A DNA stretch of 43,341 nucleotides from Fluviicola sp. (GTDB lineage: Bacteria; Bacteroidota; Bacteroidia; Flavobacteriales_D; Crocinitomicaceae). This document shows, piece by piece, positions 17,073 through 34,796 of this stretch (within the stretch, counting starts at the first letter, position 1; each line of letters opens with the position of its first letter). Made by a program: the position numbers and the translations under genes. The notes beneath the pieces were generated by a model. That model saw only the letters and a program-made list of their open reading frames with translations. It made no database searches and had not been told where the DNA came from. The DNA lies in the NCBI GenBank assembly GCA_002733985.1, contig NVXP01000031.1, positions 4,276 to 47,616 of the forward strand, given 5' to 3'.

Positions 17073-17150
17073 GGAGTGCTGGAGTGCTGGATTGTTAGAT
17101 CATTGGATTACTGGATTACTGGATTACTGGATTACTGGATTACTGGATTT
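17073..17150. repeat. 8-bp tandem repeat, GGATTACT type
   Basis: Units in strict 8-bp register from 17073: GGAGTGCT twice, GGATTGTT, AGATCATT, five exact GGATTACT (17105-17144), then GGATTT. So an array of nearly ten units with a perfect core of five. The unit length is not a multiple of three and no gene crosses it. It lies 80 bp downstream of the TPM gene stop on the minus strand. Confidence 0.9.
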
Positions 17151-23969: not shown

Positions 23970-25181
23970 TTATTGAATAATGAGGTTTTCTGACTTAACA
24001 ATTTTGTCATCATATATAATACTATAGACATATTGTCCAGCGTTCCAAGCTTCCGTTTCAATGGTACTTAATTCAGACCAAGGAGAGCTGAATACAATTT
24101 TACCATTTGAACTGACTATTTGGAGTTGAATTTTTTCTTGATCAACATTTGAAGGCCAATTGACTTGAAAATTAACGTGGTCACTTGAAGGGTTCGGGTA
24201 TGCGATGATGTCAATTTTTTCAAGAGATCGTTCAATTTGAGATAAGGTTTGATCAAATAACCATAAATCTTTGAAGTTGGTTCCGTTTGTTCCCATGGAA
24301 GCATAGGCGAATCCGTTTAATGTCGTTGCTGCGAAGTAGCGTCTGCCAGTTCCTGCGAAATCTTCAATTTGTATCCATGAGTCAGTTGAAGGTGAGTACT
24401 CCCACATATCACTAAAGCTCGTTCCACTGGATACTGCTGCCCCTGTGCCTAAATAACCATTGCCATTCAAAGCAAATCCCATTGCTTCTCGTCTAACTTG
24501 TGGTCCGACATCTGCTTTTTGTGTCCAAATGTCCAAGGAAGGATCGTATTGCCAGAAATCATTCGCTGATCCTCCGACAATGCTTCCTGTACCGACATAT
24601 CCATAGTCGCCAATTGAGAATCCGACTGATGAAGTTCTGCCAATAGGTAGAGAAGCAACTTGGGTCCAAGATTCGTTTGAAGGGTCAAATTGATAGAATG
24701 ATCCTAGTACACCTCCATTTGATTCGCCAGTTCCGACATAAGCGTACTCATCAATCACAAAAGAAACTGAACCGCGCCGTCCAATACCTGGGAAGCTATT
24801 TATTTCAGCCCAAACATTTGTAGCAGCATCGTATTTATAGAAGTCTTGAACGAGTGTACTTCCTGAAGCACTTGTTCTCCCAGTTCCAACGTAAGCAATA
24901 TTATTCATGGTGAATCCTGTCGCGTGATAGCACAAACCGCCCATGTAATCCGCTTTCTGTGTCCAAGCATTTGTTGATGGATCGTATTCCCACCAATCGT
25001 CAAATAGAATATTTGGGCCGGCACCATTATAATGTCCTAGTCCAGTGTAGACCTTATTACCAATCGCGAGCATCGTCGTTCTATGTCTGGCAGTACCACC
25101 AAAATCTGCTTTTTGGATCCAACCACCAGCAAAACAATTTATGTTGATGAAGAAGAAAAGTAAAAGTGCGGCTATTCTCAT
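23970..25181 (-). CDS. Kelch-repeat propeller protein with T9SS sorting domain (copy 4)
   Basis: 403 residues, signal peptide MRIAALLLFFFININCFAG. First blade ARHRTTMLAIGNKVYTGLGHYNGAGPNILFDDWWEYDPSTNAW pairs with copy 3. Later blades: RRGSVSFVIDEYAYVGTGES, RTSSVGFSIGDYGYVGTGSI, RREAMGFALNGNGYLGTGAA, RRYFAATTLNGFAYASMGTN. C-terminus IIAYPNPSSDHVNFQV ... WNAGQYVYSIIYDDKIVKS is a T9SS domain. The start overlaps the stop of the GEVED gene by 4 bp (ATGA), so the operon is read from 26320 leftward. Confidence 0.88.
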   Translation of the reverse strand: MRIAALLLFFFININCFAGGWIQKADFGGTARHRTTMLAIGNKVYTGLGHYNGAGPNILFDDWWEYDPSTNAWTQKADYMGGLCYHATGFTMNNIAYVGTGRTSASGSTLVQDFYKYDAATNVWAEINSFPGIGRRGSVSFVIDEYAYVGTGESNGGVLGSFYQFDPSNESWTQVASLPIGRTSSVGFSIGDYGYVGTGSIVGGSANDFWQYDPSLDIWTQKADVGPQVRREAMGFALNGNGYLGTGAAVSSGTSFSDMWEYSPSTDSWIQIEDFAGTGRRYFAATTLNGFAYASMGTNGTNFKDLWLFDQTLSQIERSLEKIDIIAYPNPSSDHVNFQVNWPSNVDQEKIQLQIVSSNGKIVFSSPWSELSTIETEAWNAGQYVYSIIYDDKIVKSENLIIQ

Positions 25182-26320
25182 TTGATCATCAGTTTTTGTA
25201 CTGAGACAGAAGATTCAGTCTGTAGTTTGAACATATATATTCCAGTAGACAGACCAGAGACATCAATCTCTTGTTTGTTTGAAATGTCTAGGGATTTCAC
25301 AATTTCTCCGCGAGAATCGATCAGTGTTAAATGACCCGATTGAGCGCCTTCAAAGAAAACCGTTGAGGATGCCGGATTTGGGAAGATGCTAAAACTCGAT
25401 TGATTCAGTATATCAACTGACAGTTCGCCTTGTCCAATGTTTAAGGTGAATGTACCAGATTCGTTATTCCATCCCTCAACGATTACGAAAAGTGAATCAT
25501 GACCAGCCGTAGGGATTGAAATTTCTGATTGTGGCCCACAATTCGGTGAGTCATCATTAATTGCAATCGGTGTCCCTTGTGAATCTGTTACAGTTAAGAA
25601 AGTATCAAAACCAGATCCACACAATGAAATGTCCAAGCTAGTTAAACTTGAAAATGCTGTAAGCAAGTAGTAAACGTCTGGTGAATTGTAAACTGGATTC
25701 TGATTGGAATAGCAAACTGTATTTGAATACGTTTCGTTAAAAGGATAGGTATTAACAGGGCGTCCATCTGTTGCATCATCACCGGTATACCCTGTACAAT
25801 CAATTCCACCTTGAATGTCAATAATAAAGTCTGTTGATGAACCCCAAGTAAAACTTGCGCAAGGATCTAGTGGTGGTGTTGCTCCTCCGCCTTCTTGTTG
25901 GTTAATGCGCATTCGTGTTTGCCCCATTGTAGCAGTTGCGGGAACTGTAAAATTGAATGTGCTGAGTGCTGTTGGCGGAATTCCTACCCATGTTCCAATT
26001 GATTCAGAAGCTTCAAAAATAGAATTCTGATTGTAATCGATCCAAGCTTCACCAGCTCCTGAGTAGTTTCCTCCACACGTACCAAATTGAATTGAAATAG
26101 AGTAAGGGCTTCCTGCTCCTAAAATCACAGATTGTGCGAATGATTCTTCAACACCAAGTGTACCTGGACAGCCTGTATATGATATACCTCCGCCATCTCC
26201 AAATAAGGAAACAGATTCAATATTTGAATCGTTGGGTGAAGTTGGTCCACCTGTCATGCAATACTGGGAATAAACAAAAGAAGAAGCAAAAAAGGAAATA
26301 ATAAGTAGAAGTTTAGTCAT
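25178..26320 (-). CDS. GEVED-domain secreted protein with T9SS sorting domain
   Basis: 380 residues, signal peptide MTKLLLIISFFASSFVYSQ. Residues about 22-165 form a GEVED domain: YCMTGGPTSPNDSNIESV opening, then GTCGGNYSGAGEAWIDYNQNSIF and GQTRMRINQQEGG. Residues about 180-300 (YPFNETYSNTVC, DVYYLLTAFSSLTSLDISLC, DTFLTVTD, SLFVIVEGWNNESGTFTLNI) resemble a pre-peptidase C-terminal (PPC)-like beta-sandwich. The end, SIFPNPASSTVFFEG ... LSTGIYMFKLQTESSVSVQ, is a canonical T9SS domain. No protease domain. It is the first gene of the Kelch operon. Confidence 0.85.
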   Translation of the reverse strand: MTKLLLIISFFASSFVYSQYCMTGGPTSPNDSNIESVSLFGDGGGISYTGCPGTLGVEESFAQSVILGAGSPYSISIQFGTCGGNYSGAGEAWIDYNQNSIFEASESIGTWVGIPPTALSTFNFTVPATATMGQTRMRINQQEGGGATPPLDPCASFTWGSSTDFIIDIQGGIDCTGYTGDDATDGRPVNTYPFNETYSNTVCYSNQNPVYNSPDVYYLLTAFSSLTSLDISLCGSGFDTFLTVTDSQGTPIAINDDSPNCGPQSEISIPTAGHDSLFVIVEGWNNESGTFTLNIGQGELSVDILNQSSFSIFPNPASSTVFFEGAQSGHLTLIDSRGEIVKSLDISNKQEIDVSGLSTGIYMFKLQTESSVSVQKLMIK

Positions 26321-28547: not shown

Positions 28548-30113
28548 CTAATGTTGAATCACTACTGGTGCTGTGAATCCTTTGTTGTTGACTGAAAATC
28601 GGACAAAATAAGTGCCAGAGGGAACATCTGAAGTACTAACGGTGCCTATTTCTACAGTTTTGATAATCTTTCCGGAGGCATCAATCAATTGACAATTTTC
28701 GTATTCTTCGAATTGATCAATTTTGAAATAATCATTTGCTGGATTTGGAAAAATAGTCATGAGCGCTTGATCACTGTGGATCGATTGTGTTGAAGTAGTT
28801 CCTGTTGAAACACTCGTTTTATTCAGGAAAATATTAAGTGTTCCAGTTCGAACATCTCCCCAAATTGAGTAAATGGTATCGCCGATGAACTGGACATTCA
28901 TGAAATCATTTCCGTTTCCTTCGAGAACTACATCGTGCGCTGCTTGCTGTGAAGATATCGGGAAGTTGGGCTCAAAGTTGATGGAATCCTTGTATCGAAT
29001 TGCTCCATAGATCTCCGTTTCTGTTTGGTATCCACTTGTGGATCCATTTCTACGATCTCTCCAGCAAATTGCCAAGTCACCGTTCTCATTAAAATCGGCC
29101 CACATAAGATCTTGGAGTTTTCCATTTCCACTAGCATCATCGTTTATTCGAATAGGCGTTGTCCAATTGATGGCATCATATGTTTCCATGAAATAAACAT
29201 CGGCATCGCCATTTTCTTGTGCTAAAAGTAATAAGCCAAGATGGCTGGGTTCAGAGTAATCACACAACATTTTCCCTCCTTTTTTTGCGAAAGGATCAGT
29301 TGTTCCAGGGATCAATATGGTGTAAGCATTGGTGTGATCGATATCTACCCCAAGCGTAGTGGAAGATGCAAGGTAAATATGAGCAAATGGGCTTTGTGAT
29401 GTTTCGTAACTTGGATAAGATGCATAAAACGTTCCGTTTGGGCCAACGAGGGGAGAGGTTGCAGCTTGACTAATCGCTCCAACATAGTAGTCTGTCGTAT
29501 CGACTAATCGAGGGTTAGAAAAATTTGCTCCACCATCTGAACTCACAACGAGGTACGAATGATATGGAGGAATTACAATTGAAGGTTGATTTGCATTGAT
29601 CGTAGTAATGTAAAGTGCTCCGTTATTTGGTCCTGTTGAATTATCAATGGCTATCCACGGTCGGTCAATGCATAATTTATCAGGACAATCAGCTATTGAT
29701 ACTGCACTCACGGCGTTTCCCCATGTGACACCATTGTCTATAGACTTTCGGACAATGACGTCGCCCTGTGTGAAAGTTTGGTTTTCGTAATCGACATAAC
29801 ACATGAATAGATTGCCATTCGAATCATATTCCAAAGAAACATCTGCGGCAGAAGTAGCACCTGTGATGTGTGGGATTTCATTTACTGCGGACCATGTGGA
29901 ACCTCCATCATCCGAATATTTTGTTTTGATAATAATGCCTTGCCCAACCTTGAATCCCATCCATGCAGCGACCAAGTGCTGTTGGTTATTTGGGTCAATT
30001 GCTAAATAGGGTTCACCTTCAAATACAGAAGCATTTGAAATATTTGTGTTTTGTGAATTTCCAAAGACCGAAATAGCTAAAAGGAAGTAGAGGATGATGT
30101 AGTAGGGTTTCAT
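28548..30113 (-). CDS. BNR/sialidase-fold secreted protein with T9SS sorting domain
   Basis: 521 residues with N-terminal signal peptide (cleavage near SVFGNSQ). The body is a six-bladed propeller of BNR type: EPYLAIDPNNQQHLVAAW, TKYSDDGGSTWSAVNEI, VRKSIDNGVTWGNAV, VVSSDGGANFSNPRLV carry S/T-x-D-x-G-x-T/S-W Asp-boxes; ICWRDRRNGSTSGYQTETEIY and SIWGDVRTGTLNIFL follow. I cannot assign sialidase catalytic residues, so the fold, not the activity, is called. The end, TIFPNPANDYFKIDQF ... VPSGTYFVRFSVNNKG, is a T9SS sorting domain. First gene of a unit with the ankyrin gene; upstream is the terminator of the decayed gene. Confidence 0.83.
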   Translation of the reverse strand: MKPYYIILYFLLAISVFGNSQNTNISNASVFEGEPYLAIDPNNQQHLVAAWMGFKVGQGIIIKTKYSDDGGSTWSAVNEIPHITGATSAADVSLEYDSNGNLFMCYVDYENQTFTQGDVIVRKSIDNGVTWGNAVSAVSIADCPDKLCIDRPWIAIDNSTGPNNGALYITTINANQPSIVIPPYHSYLVVSSDGGANFSNPRLVDTTDYYVGAISQAATSPLVGPNGTFYASYPSYETSQSPFAHIYLASSTTLGVDIDHTNAYTILIPGTTDPFAKKGGKMLCDYSEPSHLGLLLLAQENGDADVYFMETYDAINWTTPIRINDDASGNGKLQDLMWADFNENGDLAICWRDRRNGSTSGYQTETEIYGAIRYKDSINFEPNFPISSQQAAHDVVLEGNGNDFMNVQFIGDTIYSIWGDVRTGTLNIFLNKTSVSTGTTSTQSIHSDQALMTIFPNPANDYFKIDQFEEYENCQLIDASGKIIKTVEIGTVSTSDVPSGTYFVRFSVNNKGFTAPVVIQH

Positions 30114-30256: not shown

Positions 30257-30927
30257 TTAGAAATTTACTGCTTGTATTGTTTTTGTTCCTTGTCCAGCTG
30301 ATCCTCCATTTCCCCAAGGTCCGTGATTAGCATCTTGACCAAAAGAGCACAAGAAACATGTTCCGTGTACACCACCAGATCCTCCGTTTCCGCCATCAAC
30401 GTTGTAGGTTGTTTTGATGTTTTTGGCTGGAGGGTCAATAAGAAAGGTAACTAATCACGGTTACAAGCATAAAAAACAATCATTTCATCAGTAATGTAGA
30501 TGCAATCGATATTGCTTTTAACAAAAGCACAGACAAAGTCCGACCCTCCATAACTGTAAGGATTGTATTTCGTGTTGACGGTCCTCTGCTTCCCGACGGA
30601 TAGTAATCACTTTGCCTTGATCATCCTTAATAATTCGGATGCCCTGACTGCCATTCTTTCGAATGTATCTTCCGTCAACATCATAATAAGTGTATGTGCC
30701 CGTTTCCCATTTAGCCGCTATTGCCAATTGGCTTTCGGTAGTGGTTATTATTGGAATTGTATCACCAGTATTTGCTTTGTCCCTTATCTTTTTTTTGCGG
30801 CCTCCAATTTCGCTTCCATTTTTTCTCTAAGCGATTGTGCTTGAGTTAAACTTGGAGAACCAATTAATAAAAGGAGGGTGACCAGAATTGCTTGATATTT
30901 CGTCTTGATAAATTTCTGTTTGAACAA
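30257..30927 (-). pseudogene. Decayed secreted-protein gene, four pieces in shifting frames
   Basis: No single frame is long here, but successive frames read as protein. Piece 1 (about 30927-30787) has a signal peptide, AILVTLLLLIGSPSLTQAQS, then LREKMEAKLEAAKKR, and stops just after an A8 run (T8 at 30789-30796). Shifting -1 in that run gives piece 2 (to about 30570): ETGTYTYYDVDGRYIRKNG, IIKDDQGKVITI. A +1 shift between about 30606 and 30520 gives piece 3: YNPYSYGGSDFVCAFVKSN ... DEMIVFYACNRD, stop at 30451. A further -1 shift gives piece 4: LVTFLIDPPAKNIKTTYN, then Gly-rich GGNGGSGGVHGTCFLC..GPWGNGGSAG, stop at 30257. No ATG opens piece 1 (only TTG at 30927; ATC at 30909 stands where MKTKYQ would be expected). 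It has its own terminator and an upstream repeat element. Sequencing error in a draft is an alternative to decay. Confidence 0.6.
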
Positions 30928-30939
30928 GGTTATTTCAAG

Positions 30940-30993
30940 CAGTGAAAATCGTTCATGGACTTTGTGAAATGGTATTTGGACTTTGTGAATTCA
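30940..30993. promoter_or_regulatory. Candidate LytTR operator (direct repeats, 21-22 bp period)
   Basis: TGGACTTTGTGAA occurs twice exactly, at 30956-30968 and 30977-30989 (period 21). A weaker third copy of the GTGAAA core is at 30942-30948 (spacing 22). The site is between the LytTR regulator stop and the decayed gene. Relative to that gene a -7-like TAACCTTG (30932-30925) lies 24 bp downstream of the first exact repeat, the usual placement for an activator. Two direct repeats about 21 bp apart are the form of known LytTR sites (AgrA, ComE). Confidence 0.5.
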
Positions 30994-31743
30994 CTTTTTA
31001 ATCACAAATTCATTCATGAACTCTGTCATTTTGGTTTGTGATAGTTTCGCAATGATAGAATTGCTCAGATAGATGTCACCTGTTTTCTTCTTAAATTCAG
31101 TTACATGAATCATGTTAACGATCCAGGACTTTTGCGATCTGAAAAATGTAGTTTCTTTCGGAAGGGTGTCTTCAAAGTACTTGAGTGTTTTACTAACAAC
31201 GAATTCTTCACCAGAAGTAAGAAAAATCATCGAATAACTTCCTTGACCTTGGATACAGATAATTTCATTTAGCGTAAGAACACGATTTGATCCAACTTCA
31301 GGAATGACGATTTTGTGAAACTCTTGAGTGTTCAATGATTCAATCAATGTGTCATATTCGACCATCGATCTACGTGTTCCAACTGAGTCGACAATTCTTT
31401 TCAGTGTTTGATTTAATCGATCTCTATTGATTGGTTTAACGATGTAATCGAGTGCGCATAGTTCGAATGCCTTTAACGCATACTTGTCATAAGCAGTTAC
31501 AAAAACGATTTCGAAATCAATAGTGTCAAAAAAATTGACGATTTCATAACCAGCGTAATTTGGCATTTCGATGTCTAGAAAGACGACATCAGGTTTGTGT
31601 GTTTTTATACTAGCGACTGCTTCGATCAGATTCGGGCAACAAGCCACGATTTCAATAGGATGTTTTGAAATACTAATAAGTGTTTGAAGTACCTCTCGAG
31701 CATCTGGTTCATCATCGACAATTATAGCTTTGGTCAATTTCAT
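30991..31743 (-). CDS. LytTR-family response regulator
   Basis: 250 residues. Receiver domain (1-125): AIIVDDEPDARE with the acidic pair, phospho-acceptor D57 in VVFLDIEMPNYAGYE, T/S at VFVTAYDKYAL (about 85-95) and K at IVKPI (about 105-109). Residues about 145-245 are a LytTR DNA-binding domain (IVIPEVGSNRVLTLNEIICIQGQGSYSMIFLTSG, KTLKYFEDTLPKETTFFRSQKSWIVN, LSNSIIAKLSQTKMTEF). It is encoded 70 bp downstream of its likely partner sensor kinase and both flanks carry 21-bp-period repeats, suggesting it controls its own gene and the decayed/BNR region. Confidence 0.92.
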   Translation of the reverse strand: MKLTKAIIVDDEPDAREVLQTLISISKHPIEIVACCPNLIEAVASIKTHKPDVVFLDIEMPNYAGYEIVNFFDTIDFEIVFVTAYDKYALKAFELCALDYIVKPINRDRLNQTLKRIVDSVGTRRSMVEYDTLIESLNTQEFHKIVIPEVGSNRVLTLNEIICIQGQGSYSMIFLTSGEEFVVSKTLKYFEDTLPKETTFFRSQKSWIVNMIHVTEFKKKTGDIYLSNSIIAKLSQTKMTEFMNEFVIKK

Positions 31744-31783
31744 AGAGTAAAATTAGTGCTAAAATAAAGCGAGGTGAAAAAAA

Positions 31784-31815
31784 TGAGTGAAATGACCAAT
31801 TGAATTTGTGAAATT
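31784..31815. promoter_or_regulatory. Second candidate LytTR direct repeat, before the regulator gene
   Basis: TGAGTGAAATG (31784-31794) and TTTGTGAAATT (31805-31815) share GTGAAAT with a 21-bp period, the same core and spacing as the site at 30956-30989. It sits between the kinase stop and the regulator start, about 40-70 bp before the latter. Confidence 0.4.
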
Positions 31816-34720
31816 AGTAATCATGCCTGAAAGGAAAGTTTACAATGACTTTTGTTCCAGTAGGATTACCTGAATCGTCGAATAGATCCTCTATATTATA
31901 CACATATACTTGATTGTTCTGTTTGCTCAATAGCTGTAACCTGTGGTTGGTAGCGTTCAGCGAGAATGATTTATAAGCTGATTGTTGCCGCTGTTTAATC
32001 TTTAAGGCTTCGGAGCGACCAATACCATTATCTATTATGGTGCATGTTGCTTGGCCGTTGGTACAATTAAAGATCACGTCCAAGTGCTTTTTACCCGTTT
32101 TGTGAAGTAGACCATGATGGATTGCATTCTCTAGAAATGGCTGATTTAAAAGAGAGGGAATTTGTATTGAATCATTACCAAGTGAGGTTATGGAGTAGGA
32201 GAATTCTTCTTTCATTCGCAGCGATTCAAGTTGCAGGTATATTTCAAGAAAGTCCATTTCATCTTTGAGCGGAATAAACTCTTGTTCCGAAAAATGAAGT
32301 GTTTTCCTTACTAGATCTGAAAACATGACAATATAATCATATGATTTTTCCACATCCTTTCTCAATACAAGCGCTTGAATAGAGTTGAGTGAGTTAAAAA
32401 TGAAGTGTGGATTCATTTGAGAACGAATTGCTTTTAACTGAGAGTCGGCCACCTCGGTTAATAGTTTCTGCTCTTGCAATTCCCTATTTCGGGCTCGCTT
32501 TATTCGGCTCATTTGTATAAAAAATAGAGCCGATATGATAAAACAGATAAACACAATACAAAGTAGAATGAACCACCATCTCAACCAAAAAGGCTGGGCG
32601 ATGGTGAAGTTATACTCAATGGTTTTGCTTTCTTGATCTCTAAATTTTGCTTTAAGTGAGAAGTTATAATCTCCCGGCGGTAGAAAAGGAAACTCGATGG
32701 AGTTAACGGATGTTTCGAGGATTTTCCAATCATCCGAAACTCCTTCCAGTTTATACCAAATCCACGTTTCTCCTTTGGTTTCGATATCTCGATAATCGAA
32801 GAATATTTCGAGTGCATTTTGATCGTGAGAAAAAATACCGAACTGATTCAGACTAATCTTGTTTTTGTTTATTAGCAAGGAATCCAGATATATTTCACCA
32901 ATGTTCACTTTACCTCTTGCGTTTAAACTACTTAAGTCAACAGAATAATAACCTTCCTTATCTAGCAGCCAAATTTTATCCTTACTTAGTGAGAAGTTGA
33001 TCACGCGATCTGCCATTAAGCCTTCGTTGGCTCCAATCTCTTTGAATTTACGTAACTCTAAATCGTAAAGTTGAAGACCGCTATCACCTAAAACAAAGAG
33101 GAGGTTGGCCTTTAATTTGAGTTTAATGATTGTGTTAGAAAGTAATCCATCTTTACGCGTCAATTGTTTATCGAACTTTCCAGATGTATAGAAAAGCAGT
33201 CCATCTTTTTCCGTAGCAACGATTAATTCATTTTTGTAAACTTCTAAATCATTTCCAAGGAATGATTTCCCTCGAAATAAAAGAAGTTTTGAATCTTCTG
33301 TCTTCCAGTTTTTAGAGTATGTTCCAAAATTACTGGTGTAATATAGGTTTCTTTCTTTTGGGATGTAGTGTACTGAACTGCATCTTGTTAGTGTGGAGTG
33401 AGCGTATACCTTTTTTAATTCTTTATGGATGAACTCGGGAGGGATAAGTTCATGTACGTCTTTGAATAACAGATAAACCGAGTTACCATTCGTCCAAATA
33501 ACATGGCTAGAGTCTACCTCAACTAGGTCTTTAGTTGCTCCAAAGTATAGTTGAATGGAAGGGTATTCGGTGAGAAGATTGCTGAGCTTGACACCTTCTA
33601 AGAAGTAATCGTGCTCTAGGTAGAAGAGTTCGTCAATGTTAACTTTTCTTTTGTAATACAGCTGAGGGCCATTGTTATTCTTGAAAATTTCACCTTTTCG
33701 TGTGGATAAATATACTTCGTTATTAGACGACGAAACAATCCCTGAATAAGGGAAATCGCTAATATTTTTTCTGTCACGCCAATTTTGAACAACCATTATT
33801 CCTTCTTTGAACGTTCCTAGAAAAAGTGTTTGTTGAGCATTTTGGGTGATAGACGAGATAAATCGATCTTTGAAGCACGTTTTTAATTCATGAATGGAAT
33901 CATTTCGATATTCAAGAAAACGGATTCCACTGCCAATGTTAAGTTGAAACAAGTTGTTACCTGAAGAATAAGATTTGTGAGTAGAAGTTGTCCAATCCAA
34001 ATGTTGGGCTACTTCTAGATTGTTGTTCAAGTTATACACGACGTCATCTAACTTCATATAAGGAATTCCTCCCAGAGAAAAGAGGTGTTTACCTTTACTT
34101 TGATAAGGTGTTTTCTGAAGCCTTAGACGCCCTTTCGAATAGATCATACAATAATAATCATCGTTAAGAGAAAAGTATATATCACCGTTGTCAAATTGAT
34201 TGGCTCCGTAAATGTATGTCTTTGAAATTGAGTTGTTTATTTTCGGTTTTGTGGCAGAGTACAATACGGTTTTTTTTCTTTCAGAATCGATTTTATGAAT
34301 GAAACTGGACGAACAAGTTATTATGTTGTTTTCCTTGTCGAAGAAAAAGAGAAAATTACGTGTTATATCCTTAGTTGGATATTGATAATACAGCGAAAGT
34401 TTGTCTCCTTCTAGTTTAAAAATCTGACCGTTTAGATTACAGCAAAAAATAGTTCCCTTTTTATCTTTAGTTAATTGAAAAAATGAGTTACCGATCTGCT
34501 CGTTAACTTTTGGTAATAATCTAAACTTGTTCTGTGTGTATTTGTAAAGCCCTCGATCCGTTCCGGCGTATAAGATATCCGTTTCATCATCATACAGAAG
34601 TGTATAGATATCGAGGTTTGCAAGTTCATCTTCCCCAATTGTGAAGTAAGAAGGGTCTTGAGCTGAAACAGAAAAACAGAAACAAAGGAAAATTAATAAG
34701 GCGAAGTGTCTAGAGGTCAT
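31814..34720 (-). CDS. Sensor histidine kinase with periplasmic propeller, Y_Y_Y domain and HisKA_3-type/His_kinase core
   Basis: 968 residues. Signal peptide (cleavage about residue 20, FSVSAQ). Residues about 25-630 hold Reg_prop-like blades (NLDIYTLLYDDETDILYAGTDRGLYKYT, TQNAQQTLFLGTFKEGIMVV). A Y_Y_Y domain follows at about 640-700 (WYKLEGVSDDWKILE..IEFPFLPPGDYNFSLKAKF), a membrane helix at about 711-735, then the His_kinase (PF06580) motif RSQMNPHFIFNSLNSIQAL with phospho-accepting His about 771, and an ATPase domain with LLNQPFLENAIHHGL and IDNGIGRSEAL. It is the partner of the LytTR regulator downstream. The signal sensed by the propeller is unknown; its neighbours are surface proteins. 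Confidence 0.9.
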   Translation of the reverse strand: MTSRHFALLIFLCFCFSVSAQDPSYFTIGEDELANLDIYTLLYDDETDILYAGTDRGLYKYTQNKFRLLPKVNEQIGNSFFQLTKDKKGTIFCCNLNGQIFKLEGDKLSLYYQYPTKDITRNFLFFFDKENNIITCSSSFIHKIDSERKKTVLYSATKPKINNSISKTYIYGANQFDNGDIYFSLNDDYYCMIYSKGRLRLQKTPYQSKGKHLFSLGGIPYMKLDDVVYNLNNNLEVAQHLDWTTSTHKSYSSGNNLFQLNIGSGIRFLEYRNDSIHELKTCFKDRFISSITQNAQQTLFLGTFKEGIMVVQNWRDRKNISDFPYSGIVSSSNNEVYLSTRKGEIFKNNNGPQLYYKRKVNIDELFYLEHDYFLEGVKLSNLLTEYPSIQLYFGATKDLVEVDSSHVIWTNGNSVYLLFKDVHELIPPEFIHKELKKVYAHSTLTRCSSVHYIPKERNLYYTSNFGTYSKNWKTEDSKLLLFRGKSFLGNDLEVYKNELIVATEKDGLLFYTSGKFDKQLTRKDGLLSNTIIKLKLKANLLFVLGDSGLQLYDLELRKFKEIGANEGLMADRVINFSLSKDKIWLLDKEGYYSVDLSSLNARGKVNIGEIYLDSLLINKNKISLNQFGIFSHDQNALEIFFDYRDIETKGETWIWYKLEGVSDDWKILETSVNSIEFPFLPPGDYNFSLKAKFRDQESKTIEYNFTIAQPFWLRWWFILLCIVFICFIISALFFIQMSRIKRARNRELQEQKLLTEVADSQLKAIRSQMNPHFIFNSLNSIQALVLRKDVEKSYDYIVMFSDLVRKTLHFSEQEFIPLKDEMDFLEIYLQLESLRMKEEFSYSITSLGNDSIQIPSLLNQPFLENAIHHGLLHKTGKKHLDVIFNCTNGQATCTIIDNGIGRSEALKIKQRQQSAYKSFSLNATNHRLQLLSKQNNQVYVYNIEDLFDDSGNPTGTKVIVNFPFRHDY

Positions 34721-34796
34721 ATGAAGTGCTAAAAATAGTCAAATTCATAACTTGATCGGGATGAGACAGTTTTTGGAAAGTAATTTAGCTGTGTTA

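Follow-up and report, generated by a model that had tools for sequence, protein, structure and literature searches.

Paired direct repeats on both sides of a Fluviicola LytTR regulator gene as predicted operators of that regulator

Two pairs of direct repeats, one on each side of a LytTR response regulator gene in Fluviicola sp., are very probably operators of the regulator encoded between them, serving its own gene and the neighbouring secreted-protein gene. Within the stretch of DNA analysed (43,341 nucleotides, hereafter the window), the first pair lies between the regulator and its histidine kinase, and the second directly behind the regulator (Table 1). The interpretation of these repeats as a LytTR operator set, put forward in an earlier note, was supported and widened by their phasing, by the match of their letters and by their spacing from a -7 box, all read from sequence. 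From these features, we infer that the regulator binds the pairs, is phosphorylated, activates rather than represses, and commands a regulon. For Bacteroidota kinase/LytTR loci of this kind, chances are about even that they carry their own address twice, as a regulator-specific pair placed 27-28 nt before a -7 box, one serving a leaderless mRNA of the regulator and the other a secreted or surface protein.

Genes and repeat pairs at the locus

The regulator combines a receiver domain (PF00072, E 6e-21) with a LytTR domain (PF04397, E 1e-13), both over the curated cut-off, and the gene directly upstream of it encodes a His_kinase domain (PF06580, E 3e-23), which we take to be of the LytS-like type. 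In the region of FhRhHRS, described as a conserved LytTR DNA-contact motif (PMC4227749), the window regulator reads FFRSQKS and those of the related loci L048 and L049 read RSQKS, with Q for H and K for R; most of the relatives aligned have H at the His position. Two neighbouring genes on the minus strand (25178-26320 and 28548-30113) encode products with a Por_Secre_tail sorting domain, one with GEVED and one BNR-like below the curated cut-off.

Table 1. Features of the kinase/LytTR locus, in window coordinates
Feature	Position	Strand	Basis or remark
Sensor histidine kinase, 968 aa, Y_Y_Y + His_kinase	31814..34720	-	ORF; Pfam PF07495, PF06580
Upstream half-site 1, CTAATTTCACAAAT	31804..31817	-	overlaps kinase stop codon
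Upstream half-site 2, GTCATTTCACTCAT	31783..31796	-	21 bp from upstream half-site 1
Upstream -7 box, TAATTTTA	31748..31755	-	half-site 2 to box, 27 nt; box end to regulator start codon, 4 nt
LytTR response regulator, 250 aa	30991..31743	-	ORF; Pfam Response_reg + LytTR
Downstream half-site 1, TTCACAAAGTCCA	30977..30989	-	directly after regulator stop codon
Downstream half-site 2, TTCACAAAGTCCA	30956..30968	-	14-letter register ACCATTTCACAAAG = 30960-30973
Downstream -7 box, TAACCTTG	30925..30932	-	27 nt after downstream half-site 2
Decayed secreted-protein gene	~30257..30920 (approximate)	-	relatives are the genes after the regulator in L049 and L048

The 13-mer TGGACTTTGTGAA (minus-strand reading TTCACAAAGTCCA) occurs exactly at 30956-30968 and 30977-30989, 3' of the LytTR stop codon on the minus strand, with a step of 21 and no further exact match within the window, which confirms both copies claimed in the earlier note. 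A second repeat that it had seen before the regulator, GTGAAAT recurring after 21 bp, also proved real, the gap between kinase and regulator being filled by TTTCACAAA/TTTCACTCA at step 21. The weaker core that it placed at 30942 is present at step 22, but amounts to about six matching letters by eye and was given no weight.

The longest exact run at step 21 in the window is 13 letters. In 60 dinucleotide shuffles of the window, runs at steps 20-22 did not exceed 11 letters and none reached 13, in agreement with the initial claim that a chance origin of the 13-mer pair was very unlikely. The pattern TTCACAAAGTCC-N9-TTCACAAAGTCC, with up to three mismatches, has a single match in the 5.09-Mb genome, namely the window's downstream pair. 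Taken singly and with up to three mismatches, the 13-mer shows no clear enrichment in the window (31 occurrences vs 23.2 expected; 7 of 100 shuffles reach 31), and the signal is, therefore, the phased pair, which replaced the copy number of the single 13-mer as evidence. Elsewhere in the window, an 8-bp unit, CTGGATTA, forms a tandem array of 8.9 copies (17079-17149), which probably accounts for the long runs of exact matches seen at steps 16 and 24. By eye, no such repeat pair was seen in the 76-bp gap before the kinase (34721-34796), where TATTTTTA precedes the start codon, and an operator in front of the kinase was rejected on this ground.

Phasing and promoter geometry across related loci

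Relatives of the regulator were found (window genome included, sets overlapping) in 13 of 60 relatives' genomes, 11 of 34 genomes of the genus, 44 of 399 of the order and 20 of 395 of the class; the order and class genomes were drawn from larger groups, and six candidates were scored per genome. The nearest, L048 and L049, are 57-58% identical to the window regulator. The best among the named-record matches listed (58%) is a Crocinitomix MAG, whose protein shares at least 90% identity with the L049 protein; this match suggests an origin of the window near that part of the Flavobacteriales. No regulator ortholog above 58% was found in these four genome sets or among the best 80 named-genome matches, which makes a plain alignment of orthologs impossible.

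Phasing was measured on 80 loci (20 from the window genome and 60 from other genomes of the genus, family or order) as the best 11-letter self-match at steps 12-40, counting gaps with at least 8 of 11 matches. Upstream gaps of 35-300 bp were present in 47 of the 80 loci, and downstream gaps in 68. Upstream, step 21 was found in 17 gaps, vs 3.3 expected from shuffles, and step 20 in 8 (vs 3.0); downstream, the counts were 19 (vs 6.4) and 15 (vs 7.0), respectively. Steps ranking below these two in the gaps are weaker (z at most 1.9). The coding controls have their top peak at step 27, with a milder excess at 21 within the regulator gene (13/80 vs 6.1) and at 14. In 118 ordinary gaps, taken from 20 hand-picked regions of the window genome, step 21 is not enriched: 7 reach at least 8/11 matches at this step and 3 at least 9/11, as at other steps. 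Neither of the two checks suggested with the initial observation, on orthologous loci and on random intergenic DNA, spoke against it: related LytTR loci, standing in for true orthologs, show steps 20-21 in both gaps, and the step-21 excess is absent from the ordinary gaps of the genome. Single 8/11 pairs are common, as the 7 of 118 ordinary gaps illustrate, and to this extent the repeats could be ascribed to chance or duplication slippage. This explanation is nevertheless barely credible, given that none of the 60 shuffles yielded a 13-letter run and that the layout is kept with different letters in other genomes.

A half-site model (nCCATTnnTRAAn, with only steps 20-22 allowed) was applied to 160 gaps from 99 loci, 19 of which were added at the class level. 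It accepts 42 upstream gaps (of 73) and as many downstream (of 87); about half of the gaps show no pair at the threshold. The consensus of the accepted pairs across loci is CC(A/G)TTnnT(A/G)AA, and their step is 20 or 21 in 83 of 84 cases (20-22 being permitted). The window's upstream pair is not accepted by this model, and its downstream pair is placed at step 20; the site coordinates of the window come from a separate analysis of the window itself.

Site selection made no use of the -7 box, TAnnnTT(G/A). Counted from the second half-site, this box begins at 27 nt in 17 of the 41 upstream tails and at 28 nt in 4 more, for a combined 21/41; among the 40 downstream tails, the counts are 18 and 6, for a combined 24/40. 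Any other position between 0 and 59 holds at most 3. A held-out set of more distant loci, 59 from named genomes (the best 80 matches minus 21 near-copies), was scored with the model fixed. Of 31 upstream gaps, 10 yielded a pair, 6 of them with the box at 27/28 (8 of the 10 have at least 40 nt past the site); of 54 downstream gaps, 14 yielded a pair, 9 of them with the box at 27/28 (13 of the 14 have at least 40 nt past the site). In the window, the '-7-like box' that the earlier note had pointed out is indeed there, as TAACCTTG; its distance is 23 nt when measured from the 13-mer and 27 nt in the 14-letter register.

The start codon lies 38-41 nt past the site in 34 of the 42 upstream cases. 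In work on F. johnsoniae, probable promoters were recognised by a -7 box lying 4 or 5 nt ahead of the transcript start (PMC6847099); applied to the upstream promoter, this criterion places the predicted start on the regulator ATG or immediately beside it. The regulator mRNA from this promoter is, from its sequence, predicted to be leaderless, with its start at the ATG (31743). According to an account of F. psychrophilum (PMC9723704), only 5.5% of the examined mRNAs are leaderless.

The sign of regulation is not visible from sequence alone, and the pairs could also be repressor sites used for negative autoregulation. This alternative appears quite unlikely, as the pair precedes the -7 box by a constant distance, with its centre at about -57, close to the position described for AgrA (PMC4227749), and the sites overlap neither the -7 box nor the predicted start. 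The repeats have also been considered as RNA elements (riboswitch, attenuator or terminator). An inverted match of 10 letters (90%) between 30979-30988 and 31002-31011 is compatible with such a role, as is the upstream gap, which folds somewhat better than shuffles (z -1.89; 12/200 as good), but the downstream stretch folds as shuffles do (z -0.37), the window has no Rfam match at the gathering score, and RNA structure leaves both steps 20-21 and the fixed promoter distance unexplained. An RNA element is, therefore, highly improbable, and was rejected for its lack of an Rfam match in the window and its little structure.

Ownership of the pairs, candidate targets and mechanism

The assignment of the operators to the adjacent regulator is supported by two independent facts, the fixed -7 box distance in both gaps and a match between the letters of the two gaps of one locus. 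From the 41 loci with both gaps, 3 near-copies (at least 75% identity) and 6 loci without candidate pairs were removed; for the remaining 32, each upstream pair was scored against every downstream pair, and partners were permuted 20,000 times. The summed score of own partners was 1412, vs 1299 +/- 17 for permuted ones, and none of the 20,000 permutations was as high. The match holds without the window locus (z 6.4, 31 loci) and at stricter identity cut-offs (60%: z 5.1, 20 loci; 50%: z 3.4, p 0.001, 9 loci). The own partner ranks in the top three for 14 of the 32 loci and lower than 15th for 9; for L048 and L049, respectively as listed, it ranks 2 and 7 of 32. Repeat letters are alike between both gaps of a locus and unlike between loci with different regulators.

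It is this agreement, along with a layout that adjoins the regulator gene in many genomes, that makes it unlikely that the pairs are operators of another LytTR paralog, with the locus as a target rather than a self-regulating unit. Candidates for such a role exist, since the genome contains 26 matches to the regulator, itself included (3 receiver-only and 23 reaching the LytTR part), and at least one paralog, L008, has similar CACAAAA repeats downstream, in a pair that is not accepted by the half-site model. No convincing pair was seen at L007 and L009, which are close paralogs.

With the pairs assigned to the adjacent regulator, the motif that had been proposed for its whole flavobacterial LytTR branch holds for this regulator and for the related L048, but not for the branch, and CCATTTCACAAAG is preferable to TTTCACAAAG as its statement. 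The letters TTTCAC are kept in L048, and not clearly in L049. A distant LytTR paralog of the window genome, L017, has an exact 14-letter pair downstream of its regulator (ACAGTTCATTCAAA, step 21), which presumably resembles an AgrA-type core. The class-level relative L171 has an exact pair (GCACTTCCTCAAA, step 21) downstream of a regulator in which, as in the window's, Q replaces H in FhRhHRS.

Across 58 loci (register mixed for some odd sites, the window's included), an aromatic residue at position 237 of the regulator alignment goes with T at half-site position 8: this T is present in 42 of 46 loci with the aromatic residue and in 3 of 12 loci without it ([[42,4],[3,9]], p 1.2e-5). Outside the main clade, the table is [[8,1],[3,9]] (p 0.0075), and supported tree branches hold only three independent pairs, too few for significance. 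A recognition code was, therefore, rejected as a result, and the association is retained as a hint towards one, not yet independent of descent.

The neighbour downstream of the regulator is often a long protein with a signal peptide start, judged by eye. Among 43 neighbours (hand-chosen from 73, many being cut by the locus end), Por_Secre_tail was found in 13, SBBP propellers in 8 and Laminin_G_3 in 6. The site that had been described as upstream of a secreted-protein gene is in place in the window, but the gene itself has decayed: in a 1.1-kb search, fragments related to the neighbour in L049 (E 5e-25) were spread over different frames, and an internal part was missing. Its relative is a 442-aa frame in L048 and is open up to the locus end in L049. 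The operator stays exact, although the gene behind this sharpest promoter (30257-30920) has decayed.

Genome-wide, TTTCACAAA-N12-TTTCACAAA, with up to three mismatches, occurs at 48 places, vs 24 for the backwards pattern. All 48 were read: two are the window's own, and the other 46 comprise 11 intergenic places and 35 within open frames of at least 90 codons. The -7 box at 26-28 (in a register that puts the window's own at 26) is found at 3 of the 11 intergenic and none of the 35 coding places; at a background box rate of 0.8-1.2%, the probability of at least 3/11 is 0.00008-0.0003. The three places (L110 at C67:7514, L113 at C17:41630 and L135 at C102:55033), with the box at 28, not 27, in the window's register, precede, by eye, a 257-aa lipoprotein-like protein and type IX secretion cargo-like proteins of 818 and 441 aa. 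They may belong to the same regulon, or could belong to the paralog L008, given its CACAAAA repeats.

In the proposed mechanism, the kinase would activate the LytTR regulator. Two LytTR domains would then sit next to each other on the half-sites, along the same face of the helix and with their centre at about -57 from the predicted transcript start. The bound regulator would recruit RNA polymerase to the promoter with its -7 box 27 nt downstream. The upstream pair would drive a leaderless mRNA of the regulator alone, a positive feedback uncoupled from the kinase, and the downstream pair the neighbouring secreted protein, decayed in the window; the three distant promoters of surface- or secreted-type proteins may join the same regulon.

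If kinase/LytTR loci of this kind do carry their address twice, they label themselves, so that many regulator-operator pairs could be readable from sequence and a LytTR recognition code could be inferred. For regulators such as the matches counted above, operators adjoining the gene at a fixed promoter distance would give each one a readable DNA address and a prediction of its regulon. Transcription of the regulator from within the operon, as a leaderless mRNA, would also suggest a feedback that raises the regulator without the kinase.

Comparison with known LytTR systems

Paired LytTR repeats, among them repeats at Bacteroides LRS-like operons, their position near -60, and autoregulation are already known (PMC4227749, PMC4847170, PMC6193735). 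The new elements are a kinase-linked LytTR regulator that has a predicted operator and leaderless promoter in the gap behind the kinase gene, a further pair 3' of the regulator, and regulator-specific letters; a literature search of titles and abstract starts, covering few subscription journals, found no description of this intra-operon layout. In general, LytTR sites are described as a pair of 9-11 nt repeats separated by 11-13 nt (PMC4847170), and the step of 21 in both gaps of the window agrees with this spacing. The sites are said to have no common consensus sequence (PMC4847170), the consensus being elsewhere called broadly defined (PMC6193735).

At the agr promoters P2 and P3, AgrA is described with upstream direct repeats, those closest to the promoter being centred near -60 (PMC4227749), and the window shares with it the LytTR domain and repeats at a similar position (about -57). 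In contrast, both agr promoters lie in one intergenic region, whereas the predicted promoters of the window follow two different genes, the kinase and the regulator, and, unlike agr P2/P3, have Bacteroidota -7 boxes.

The LRS (HdrRM, BrsRM) are reported to have autoregulatory direct repeats just upstream of the promoter, the letters of which vary between systems, with length, spacing and position conserved; in a Bacteroides LRS-like example, repeats of 11 bp are separated by 11 bp and accompanied by a TATCTTTG box (PMC6193735). Direct repeats of this autoregulatory type, just upstream of a promoter, are also seen at the window locus. In the LRS as described there, however, the regulator is paired with a membrane inhibitor and its repeats control the operon as a whole, whereas in the window, it is paired with a Y_Y_Y/His_kinase sensor kinase, and the predicted promoter is situated in the gap between these two genes. 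Owing to this partner, the window locus is not classed as an LRS, despite its similar repeats.

YpdB/YpdA of E. coli is, like the window pair, a LytS/LytTR two-component system. YpdB binds a direct repeat of GGCATTTCAT (PMC4847170), with which the window half-site has CATTTCA in common. The site described for YpdB is that of a target promoter, yhjX, whereas in the window, the predicted promoter lies between the kinase and its regulator.
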